This document shows positions 9,158-12,295 of a stretch of DNA of 64,000 bases, piece after piece (the stretch's first letter is position 1; the number at the start of each line of letters is the position of its first letter). The stretch covers positions 62,001-126,000 of the forward strand of contig JAFYBQ010000030.1 of assembly GCA_017540085.1 (NCBI GenBank), given 5' to 3'. The translations under genes and the position numbers were made by a program. This stretch comes from Synergistaceae bacterium. GTDB lineage: Bacteria; Synergistota; Synergistia; Synergistales; Aminobacteriaceae. A model generated the notes under the pieces. The model had not been told where the DNA came from, made no database searches, and saw nothing but the letters and a program-made list of their open reading frames with translations.

Positions 9158-9370
9158 ATGAAATTTTATGATCTTGAATGGCTCGCGGAGAAATGCGGAA
9201 CGGATAACAAGTACGAGATTACAGCCAAAGTCGCCGCAGAAGCCCGGCGCGAAAGTGAAGAGGACGCTACAGACAAGACTAACCCCGCAAACGAGCGGTA
9301 TATCTCTAATGTACTTCTTGAGATTGAAGAAGGCAAAAGTCCCCTCAACGCCCCCGAACCGATAATATAA
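9158..9370 (+). CDS. rpoZ: RNA polymerase omega subunit
   Basis: A 70-residue protein with the omega pattern: N-terminal DLEWLAEKCGTDNKYEITAKVAAEARR corresponding to the region that clamps the beta' C-terminus, and a C-terminal NVLLEIEEGK matching the usual ALxEIxxGKI. Omega helps fold and assemble beta' into core polymerase. The sequence is divergent, so neighbourhood matters: it sits directly before coaBC and the priA homologue, a classic rpoZ position. The start at 9158 has a near-perfect AAAGGAGGA site. Its stop overlaps the coaBC start (TAATG), so the two are translationally coupled. Confidence 0.8.
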   Translation: MKFYDLEWLAEKCGTDNKYEITAKVAAEARRESEEDATDKTNPANERYISNVLLEIEEGKSPLNAPEPII

Positions 9371-10545
9371 TGCAAAACTGGAAGCATGGCCGCAAAATTC
9401 TCCTCGGAATCACCGGGGGCATAGCGGCCTACAAGATTCCCGGATTAGTCCGGCTCATCACAAAATCAGGCAGCGAGTCAGAAATCATCATGACAGACTC
9501 CGCCCGGAATTTCGTTGCGCCTATGACTCTTGAGACTCTCTCAGGCCGAAAAGTTTTCACCGACTCCGATTTCGGCTCCTCGATTCCTCACATAAAGCTG
9601 TCTCAATGGGCTGAAGTTTTCGTGATTGCACCCTGCACCGCAAACACCCTCGCAAAAATCGCGCACGGAGTCGCCGACAATCTCCTAACCTCAGCAGTAA
9701 CAGCCGCAAGATGTCCCCTGCTCATATTTCCGGCCATGAATGAAGCAATGTACGACAATCCCGCGACACAGGCGAATATTTCCGCGCTCAAATCACGGGG
9801 CGTGAAAGTCATTGAGCCGTCATCCGGCGAGCTTGCCTGCGGGGACTCAGGACGCGGGAGAATGCCTGAACCCGCCGAAATCATGCGCGAGATTCACCGG
9901 GCTTTGTGCGTTCACGACATGGCCGGGAAAAATGTTCTTGTTACAGCCGGGCCGACTCATGAATATATTGACCCTGTGCGCTACATCTCGAACCCTTCAA
10001 GCGGGAAAATGGGACTCGCCGTTGCCCGTTCAGCGTGGTACATGGGCGCAAATGTTAGAGTGATTGCCGGGCCTGTTGATGTTGACGCTTACGGAATGGA
10101 CGTTATCCGCGTAACTTCAGCGCGTGATATGCTTGAGGCGGTGAGGGAAAATATTTCGTGGGCTGACTATATCGTGAAGGCCGCCGCTGTCGGTGATTAT
10201 CGTGTGAAAGAATTTTCCCCGCACAAGCTCAAACGCGGAGGGAAGGATACATTGACCCTCGAATTAGTGCAGAACCCGGACATTTCAGCAGAGGCAGGAA
10301 GGCTCAAGAGGGCCGGGCAGATTCTCATAGGCTTTGCGGCTGAAACCGACAACATCACAGCCAACGCCCGCGAAAAGTTAGCCCGCAAGAATCTTGATTA
10401 CATTCTCGCAAATGACGCGGCTAAAGGTTTCGGGACTGACACGAACACAATAACGCTAATTTCCCGAAACGGTGAAGAGGCTACATTCTCCGGCCTGAAG
10501 GAAGATATAGCGTTCGACATTTGGAGGCGGATAATTGCTCGTTGA
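9370..10545 (+). CDS. coaBC: Bifunctional phosphopantothenoylcysteine decarboxylase / phosphopantothenate-cysteine ligase
   Basis: A 391-residue fusion of normal size that carries out two steps of coenzyme A synthesis. The N-terminal CoaC flavin domain (about 1-180) shows GITGGIAAYK, the catalytic His in IPHIKLSQ and the PAMNEAMYDN substrate clamp. The C-terminal CoaB domain (about 190-391) shows TAGPTHEYIDPVR, NPSSGKMG and KLKRG, the CTP- and phosphate-binding elements. It starts at 9370 within the rpoZ stop and overlaps the priA-like gene by 11 bases, so the run is tightly coupled. Confidence 0.97.
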   Translation: MQNWKHGRKILLGITGGIAAYKIPGLVRLITKSGSESEIIMTDSARNFVAPMTLETLSGRKVFTDSDFGSSIPHIKLSQWAEVFVIAPCTANTLAKIAHGVADNLLTSAVTAARCPLLIFPAMNEAMYDNPATQANISALKSRGVKVIEPSSGELACGDSGRGRMPEPAEIMREIHRALCVHDMAGKNVLVTAGPTHEYIDPVRYISNPSSGKMGLAVARSAWYMGANVRVIAGPVDVDAYGMDVIRVTSARDMLEAVRENISWADYIVKAAAVGDYRVKEFSPHKLKRGGKDTLTLELVQNPDISAEAGRLKRAGQILIGFAAETDNITANAREKLARKNLDYILANDAAKGFGTDTNTITLISRNGEEATFSGLKEDIAFDIWRRIIAR

Positions 10546-12295
10546 TGTCGCTGTGCCTGAAATAGGGATTGACGCTCTGACGTATGAGACTGACTCAGAG
10601 ATTGACGCGGGCGCGAGGGTAATTGTTGACGTGAGGAAAACGAAATACGCCGGGTTCATTCTCGGAGAGTCCCTGAAGAAACTTCCGCGCGGAGTCAAGG
10701 CCAAGCCCGTAGAAGGAATAATAGACTCCGTGATGTCTGTTGACCGTGATATTTGGGACTTGTCGAGATGGGCGGCGAATGTCAGCATGTCGGGAATGTC
10801 GTCCGCCCTCAAAGCCGCGTTTCCGGCGCAAATCCTCACGGGCGAAAAGTTAGACCCTCCGCCGGAAGACGAGTCCCAGTCAGCAAGATTCACCGAGAGA
10901 GATTACTTTAACCCGTTTGACGCAGAGCGGGTTAATTTTTTTCTTGCCGAGCTTGATACGGACATTCGGACGCTGATACTATTTCCCCGGAAGGATGACG
11001 CTAAATCGTTCTTCATGAATCTTCCTGAGACCCTCAAAGCCGAGTCGGTCTTGTGGCAGTCAGCAGAAAAAGGCCCGAAATTTTTCGACACGTGGAAGGC
11101 GATTCATTCCGGCCATGTGCGAATCGTAATCGCTCCTCCGGGGGGAGTGTTCGCCCCTTTGAGGCCGGGAAAAATCATCGTTGAGGACGAATCCAGCCCC
11201 GCGCACGTTATCCCCTACACCCTGAACTTGTCCGCAAGAAGCCTCGCAGGACACCGCGCCGCGTTCCTTCAATCCGAGCTGATATTAGCCGGGCGTATTC
11301 CCTCGCTGAAGACGTTTGCCCGCGCTCATCCCCGCGAGACCGTCAAGCCTGACCGCCGTAATATTATCCTTGCTGACATTAACCGCTCGCGAATGGAGGA
11401 ATTACCCGGCATTGAGGGCAATATTCCGCTGACTCTCACTCTCACGAGCCGGACTCACATCGAAATCGGCAAGGGGAACAATGTAGTATGGATTCTGAAC
11501 CGAACGGGCGAGTCGTCTGAAGTCTTCTGCGAAAACTGCGGGGAGACCGTCAAATGTCCCAAATGCGGAGGAATAATGCAGTCCCGGAATGACGGCGCTA
11601 TGCTAAAGTGCAGGCGTTGCGGAATGATTCGGACTCTTCCGGAAGCCTGCGAGAAATGCGGGTATCATCTTCTTGTCGGGAAACGTCCGGGCATCGAGGC
11701 ATTAGCGAAAATCGCCGGGAGATATTTTTCTGACGTTCATATTTTGGTCGACGGTGTGAAGGTCTCAGACGTTCGCGGGCTTTTTCTGTCGACAGGGAAA
11801 GGACTCGCCCTGCTCGGAGAGATTCAGCCGTCATTAGTTGCGTGGCTTGACATTGACTCGGAATTGTGGCGAATGAATCACGATAACCGCTATAACGTCT
11901 ACAGCGCATTGTGCGAGTCATACTGGCGGGGGCGGACTCATGACTCCGGGCGGAAGATTCTCATTCAGGGGCGGAGAAAGGGACTCAGGCTCGCGGAATT
12001 TCTCGCGGGGGGATGGACTCGCTTTATCCCTGACGAACTGCGAGCGAGGGCGGAATTTCTGCTCCCTCCATACGGCTATATTGTCGAGATTGAAACAAGC
12101 GGGGGAAAACTGCGTGATGATATAATCAGCTCATTGACGGACGCGGGAATATTCGTGATGGATCCGGGGGACAGTTCACAGCCTCTGTACGTAAGCTGTG
12201 AATCGCTTGAGGCCGTCAGGAAAATTCTTGAGCCGGAAAAATTTCTCAGGAACACTAAATCACAGTACATAAAAATCACAGTAAGGAGCGACTAA
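10535..12295 (+). CDS. priA: PriA-like primosomal protein lacking the helicase Walker A motif
   Basis: A 586-residue protein in the usual priA position after coaBC, but about 150 residues short. An N-terminal DNA-binding domain (PEIGIDALTYE, GARVIVDVRKTKYAGFILG) is recognisable. Four CxxC pairs at 332/335, 341/344, 359/362 and 372/375 form the two-zinc binuclear domain, followed by GxEALAKIAGRYF and a C-terminal domain with EFLLPPYGYIVEIE. The expected GxTGSGKT nucleotide loop is absent, the DEEH box reads VEDESS (217-221), and no QVAGRAGR-like motif VI is seen. It is therefore probably unable to hydrolyse ATP and may only bind forks or recruit partners in replication restart. Start is TTG 10535 with GGAGG seven bases upstream. 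Confidence 0.85.
   Translation: MLVDVAVPEIGIDALTYETDSEIDAGARVIVDVRKTKYAGFILGESLKKLPRGVKAKPVEGIIDSVMSVDRDIWDLSRWAANVSMSGMSSALKAAFPAQILTGEKLDPPPEDESQSARFTERDYFNPFDAERVNFFLAELDTDIRTLILFPRKDDAKSFFMNLPETLKAESVLWQSAEKGPKFFDTWKAIHSGHVRIVIAPPGGVFAPLRPGKIIVEDESSPAHVIPYTLNLSARSLAGHRAAFLQSELILAGRIPSLKTFARAHPRETVKPDRRNIILADINRSRMEELPGIEGNIPLTLTLTSRTHIEIGKGNNVVWILNRTGESSEVFCENCGETVKCPKCGGIMQSRNDGAMLKCRRCGMIRTLPEACEKCGYHLLVGKRPGIEALAKIAGRYFSDVHILVDGVKVSDVRGLFLSTGKGLALLGEIQPSLVAWLDIDSELWRMNHDNRYNVYSALCESYWRGRTHDSGRKILIQGRRKGLRLAEFLAGGWTRFIPDELRARAEFLLPPYGYIVEIETSGGKLRDDIISSLTDAGIFVMDPGDSSQPLYVSCESLEAVRKILEPEKFLRNTKSQYIKITVRSD

Follow-up and report, generated by a model that had tools for sequence, protein, structure and literature searches.

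A PriA orthologue with a degenerate helicase core in the Synergistota

PriA is usually described as a helicase that opens forks so that the replisome can be reloaded. The PriA orthologue of the Synergistota, described here from a stretch of 64,000 nucleotides of a Synergistaceae genome (the window) and followed through the phylum, shares with the canonical helicase (E. coli, Klebsiella, Bacillus; TIGR00595/PRK05580) its 3'-end binding domain (3'BD), RecA-like lobes, eight-cysteine zinc domain and C-terminal domain (CTD) fold, but it is without the winged helix, the P-loop, the DEEH histidine, GSATP and GRAGR. It is very unlikely that the window protein works as a helicase. We consider it likely that Synergistota PriA is a pseudohelicase, an ATP-independent, fork-binding scaffold that aids the reloading of DnaB, probably together with DciA.

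Orthology and domain architecture

The window gene is an uninterrupted frame of 586 codons whose product is 146 residues shorter than E. coli PriA, in agreement with the unbroken frame and the shortfall of about 150 residues noted by an earlier, sequence-only reading of this DNA. Its features and its conserved neighbour are as follows:

9370..10545, plus strand: coaBC, the conserved neighbour upstream of priA
10535..12295, plus strand: priA-like gene (probable pseudohelicase PriA), 586 aa, TTG start overlapping the coaBC stop
10535..10852, plus strand: 3'BD, residues 1-106 (Pfam PF17764, column counts)
10853..10888, plus strand: short linker replacing the E. coli winged-helix domain, E. coli 119-212 being absent (alignment; closest structure 6dcr)
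10889..11434, plus strand: degenerate RecA-like helicase lobe 1 (HD1), about residues 119-300 (AF2 model, Foldseek and VIA matches to PriA structures)
10910..10930, plus strand: Walker A remnant N126-P-F-D-A-E-R132 replacing the GVTGSGK loop, with R132 aligned to E. coli K230
11183..11194, plus strand: motif II remnant EDES (DEEH in E. coli)
11435..12070, plus strand: degenerate helicase lobe 2 (HD2) carrying the inserted zinc domain, about residues 301-512 (hhalign, model, structure matches)
11528..11659, plus strand: cysteine-rich region (CRR), eight Cys in four CxxC pairs, residues 332-375 (invariant in 78/78)
11915..11935, plus strand: ESYWRGR replacing motif VI QVAGRAGR, with ES..RG conserved across Synergistales
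12071..12292, plus strand: shortened CTD, about residues 513-586, SSB-tail Arg not conserved (alignment, column counts)

The product of 10535-12295 is a PriA orthologue, with full-length homology, an eight-cysteine zinc region in lobe 2 and an N-terminal 3'-end binding domain. Its matches to the NCBIfam models PRK05580 (E 6.9e-34) and TIGR00595 (E 1.3e-30) lie well below cut-off (117 bits vs. a cut-off of 763), the Pfam 3'BD model PF17764 is matched above cut-off (E 7.9e-11), and the only clear phmmer matches are PriA entries of the PDB. When 20 diverse Synergistales PriAs were aligned as a profile with seven canonical PriAs, hhalign returned a probability of 100 (E 2.8e-60) over 590 columns. 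Moreover, an AlphaFold2 model of the window protein built with 52 Synergistota sequences (pLDDT 87.2, pTM 0.85) aligns over its full length with the canonical PriA structures 8fak, 6dgd and 4nl4. PriA entries fill the first nine places in Foldseek. By VIA-align the closest structure is 6dcr (6dcr_B; Z 29.5, 3.5 Å, 483 residues), followed by other PriA entries at Z 25.9-26.6, with Mfd as the first non-PriA protein at Z 16.6.

Relative to E. coli PriA, the window protein has 11 inserted and 157 absent residues. As many as 94 of the latter form one block, E. coli 119-212, which is the winged-helix domain, and the remainder comprises small loops and part of the CTD. The shortness of the protein is therefore mostly a deleted domain, and the sequence-only reading erred in calling the flanking domains intact, the CTD being trimmed as well. 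The winged-helix domain is absent from every Synergistota PriA aligned, with E. coli 121-200 empty in all rows. The closest structure, 6dcr, is an E. coli PriA engineered to lack the same domain, its helicase core being otherwise wild type; it is a laboratory deletion, whereas Synergistota PriA is a natural protein. The zinc domain had been read correctly, as all eight cysteines are present in the window protein and invariant in 78/78 Synergistota PriAs. Within the 3'BD, E. coli Tyr18, Gly29 and Arg31 are kept (Tyr18 in 78/78) and Asp17 is replaced by Thr.

Helicase motifs

Motifs were counted in 78 Synergistota PriAs aligned with E. coli PriA. GxTGSGKT, reported as missing from the window protein, is indeed absent both there and from 78/78, the P-loop glycines and Thr having been lost, and the column of the Walker Lys (E. 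coli K230) is Arg in 78/78. The same register of Arg with the Walker Lys was given by hhalign for the Synergistales and, separately, for the deep families f11 and f12. Another set, of 52 sequences with the window protein among them, has 51 Arg and 1 Gln in this column. Motif II is a more qualified case. The EDES described for the window is there, and the DEEH His is lost in 78/78; the third acidic residue, however, is still Glu in 77/78, such that this motif is only partly lost. GSATP has become GGRxPS, and GRAGR, the motif VI core that had not been seen in the window protein, is lost across the phylum, with ESYWRGR in its place in the window and a conserved ES..RG in the Synergistales. The motif IV Arg is kept in 78/78 and Asp560 in 76/78. 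Among ten canonical controls from the Bacillota, Pseudomonadota, Bacteroidota, Cyanobacteriota and Fusobacteriota, GRAGR is intact in 10/10 and GxTGSGKT in 9/10.

Six residues near the old motif VI (window 11915-11974) are invariant and new to Synergistales PriA: E461, S462, G466, R473, Q478 and R480. These residues suggest that a new interface has formed, or that a lock spans the former ATP cleft.

At the P-loop site, the model places a strand (120-125), a three-residue loop (N-P-F) and a helix (129-139) that contains R132. The structure prediction that the sequence-only reading had proposed as a check thus yields a PriA fold with a shortened strand-loop-helix and no P-loop. That reading had left room for a degenerate but complete nucleotide loop; the predicted structure retains the site of the loop without the nucleotide loop itself, and therefore such a loop appears to be absent. 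It could be argued that the lobes still bind nucleotide in some degenerate fashion, as a conformational switch or with slow hydrolysis, since the invariant Arg, the motif II Glu and Asp560 would by homology lie near the would-be ATP cleft. We regard this as quite improbable. The P-loop glycines and Thr are gone, just three residues precede the helix, and K230R alone abolishes the ATPase of E. coli PriA, while the Arg-bearing PriA of Deinococcus radiodurans has none (PMC4504706). Loss of the ATPase is the preferred reading, and the window protein is predicted not to bind and hydrolyse ATP normally.

Experiments have already established a helicase-dead PriA in Deinococcus, and the concept has been published for the Deinococcota. 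The D. radiodurans protein carries Arg at the Walker Lys and has neither ATPase nor helicase activity, yet it interacts with DnaB and binds forks, the latter at about 109 nM (PMC4504706). Like Synergistota PriA, it is a PriA orthologue with a Walker Lys-to-Arg change and a degenerate motif II. The Deinococcota are described, however, as having poor matches to motifs I and II and a Lys-to-Arg change in GKT, whereas the Synergistota have erased the whole glycine loop; helicase motifs are otherwise well conserved in an alignment of 100 PriAs from 18 phyla (PMC4504706). Synergistota PriA has also lost the winged helix. Our literature search, with most subscription journals beyond its reach, found no paper on a helicase-dead PriA in the Synergistota. 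What is novel here is the phylum-wide combination of the Walker Lys-to-Arg change, the erased P-loop and the winged-helix deletion. Against the NCBIfam PRK14873 models of actinobacterial PriA (about 650-760 aa) the window protein scores at best 80.2 bits (cut-off 812), so it falls outside that subfamily. Actinobacterial PriA is annotated as probable PriA, with undetectable helicase motifs, and occurs in bacteria that bear DciA too.

Distribution, locus and selection

A priA-like gene was found in 146 of 151 Synergistota genomes and in 115 of the 116 of high quality, coding mostly for proteins of about 580-650 aa, and none of the 151 has a canonical PriA. The loss, which might have proved unique to one assembly, is thus a trait of the phylum. 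Synergistota PriAs fall below the NCBIfam cut-offs, save for TIGR00595 in four deep-branching genomes of f11 and f12, where Walker A is absent too. The named matches of a profile scan over genome contigs were all Synergistota, isolate or complete genomes among them, and include Acetomicrobium hydrogeniformans ATCC BAA-1850, Pyramidobacter sp. C12-8 and Synergistota bacterium L-13. No relative is encoded on viral contigs, and the 60 plasmid records listed of 74 with a priA match include none from the Deinococcota, Thermotogota or Actinomycetota.

In our tree the canonical PriAs form one group (support 100/99), and hence the Synergistota PriAs lie on the other side. The deepest families, f11 and f12, do not come out as one clade. 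The pattern is compatible with one loss before the crown of the phylum. The Walker Lys-to-Arg change might go back further still, to a single ancient event shared with the Deinococcota, which one phylogenomic study places near the Synergistota (PMC10356935). Their common ancestor would then already have restarted forks with a motorless PriA, from which the Synergistota later erased the P-loop and the winged helix. We think this unlikely, the alternative being convergence; were it true, whole phyla could have done without the PriA helicase for very long spans of time.

The gene is single-copy in the window's genome, which is 99.8% complete. A search for a second, complete priA, as the sequence-only reading had advised, or for a PriA-like helicase that might compensate, turned up none: elsewhere in this genome the TIGR00595 matches are UvrB and RecG, recognised from the translated frames, and a frame of 1022 aa taken by its length to be Mfd. 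The place of the gene after coaBC had been called canonical, and rightly so. Under a strict gap rule coaBC lies immediately 5' of priA on the same strand in 43 of the 50 loci examined, and this order is common to the Synergistota and Bacillus.

Pairwise dN/dS is 0.15-0.19 for the whole gene and 0.10-0.14 for the dead lobe 1. Because the more divergent pairs approach saturation at synonymous sites, most trust should go to the values of the closest pair, 0.148 for the whole gene and 0.128 for lobe 1. At a dN/dS of about 0.15, Synergistota PriA is a maintained pseudoenzyme, and its dead helicase core is not decaying. A decaying gene, or an artefact of assembly or frameshift, might have been suspected from the short protein and its low scores against PriA models. 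Its presence in so many genomes, isolates and complete ones among them, with the same motif losses throughout, and this dN/dS leave such an explanation virtually no credence. The earlier interpretation of an evolved loss rather than a frameshift is borne out by the uniform motif loss (78/78), the lack of a canonical PriA, strong purifying selection that extends to the dead lobe, and the coaBC-priA order.

A congeneric genome carries, directly downstream of its full-length priA, a partial second copy of the PriA C-terminal region (L007:1163-1519; G013:C8:74234-74587, minus strand). It is a tandem partial duplication that covers residues 469-585 with one stop, and is about 67-70% identical to the window protein.

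Replication restart and its partners

ATPase-dead PriA of E. coli can still assemble primosomes, and alleles of the K230R type are viable; the K230R protein itself has no ATPase but assembles primosomes (reviewed in PMC4504706). DnaB-loading assays are run with K230A PriA (PMC10175261). In complex with a fork, E. coli PriA touches the leading strand with its 3'-end pocket and CTD and the parental duplex with HD1, the 3'BD and the winged helix, and it surrounds lagging-strand single-stranded DNA with a pore made of the CRR, HD2 and CTD (PMC10175261). Compared with this complex, Synergistota PriA keeps the domains that serve the leading strand and the pore; the winged-helix grip is gone, and so is the motor. 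As the motor and one DNA-gripping domain have been lost under continuing selection, restart in the Synergistota probably works without DNA unwinding by PriA.

How such a protein might act can be pictured from the predicted fold, which retains the 3'-end pocket, the two RecA-like lobes, the zinc domain and the CTD. The grip on the parental duplex would have gone with the winged helix, and abandoned forks or D-loops would most likely be recognised through the nascent 3' end and the fork arms, with the lagging-strand template held in the pore of zinc domain, HD2 and CTD. On this passive scaffold DnaB could be loaded again, probably with the help of DciA, the loader of the phylum. Where the lagging arm is still duplex, its opening would fall to other enzymes; RecG and UvrD/PcrA are present. 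Two E. coli residues, Asp17 (3'-nucleotide recognition) and the CTD Arg (SSB-tail binding), are not conserved, so the details of fork recognition must differ from E. coli.

The protein might alternatively have left replication restart for another job, such as a DNA repair scaffold or a regulator, with other factors taking over restart. Such a departure would fit the new conserved motifs (ES..RG replacing motif VI, W-D-D-E in lobe 2) and the fact that several residues contacting the fork or SSB in E. coli have been lost. On the other hand, all PriA domains but the winged helix are kept, down to the eight Cys and the 3'BD Tyr18; this is the sole PriA of the genome, and like its Bacillus counterpart it adjoins coaBC; and PriC had no match above cut-off in any of the 61 Synergistota genomes searched. 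We therefore hold a change of job to be improbable and prefer a scaffold for DnaB reloading. We found no biochemistry on any Synergistota PriA in the literature.

That an entire phylum lives with a PriA lacking motor motifs and winged helix, and keeps it under strong purifying selection, indicates that what cannot be dispensed with in PriA is the recognition of structures and the recruitment of partners, not unwinding. It offers a natural minimal PriA with which to test DnaB reloading in bacteria that use DciA, not DnaC/DnaT; according to PMC5720831, replication restart had not been studied in mycobacteria, another DciA group. The annotation "primosomal protein N-prime / PriA helicase" in the Synergistota should not be taken to imply helicase activity.

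As for partners, the window's genome encodes one full-length DnaB, an SSB with an IPF tip, and RecG, UvrB and UvrD/PcrA-type helicases; no DnaC/DnaI-type loader was matched above cut-off in it. The Pfam model finds DciA in 136 of the 151 Synergistota genomes, and a control search found it in Thermus and Deinobacterium as well. The proposed link between DciA and PriA is one of co-occurrence, DciA being common in bacteria. The window genome's own DciA (L174, G000:C41:327-776) was found via a relative's protein, at 55% identity; DciA of this genus is so divergent that Pfam PF05258 misses that copy. A DnaD-type protein occurs in one of the 151 genomes, as a lone PF07261 domain (L175, G108:C131:16090-16302).
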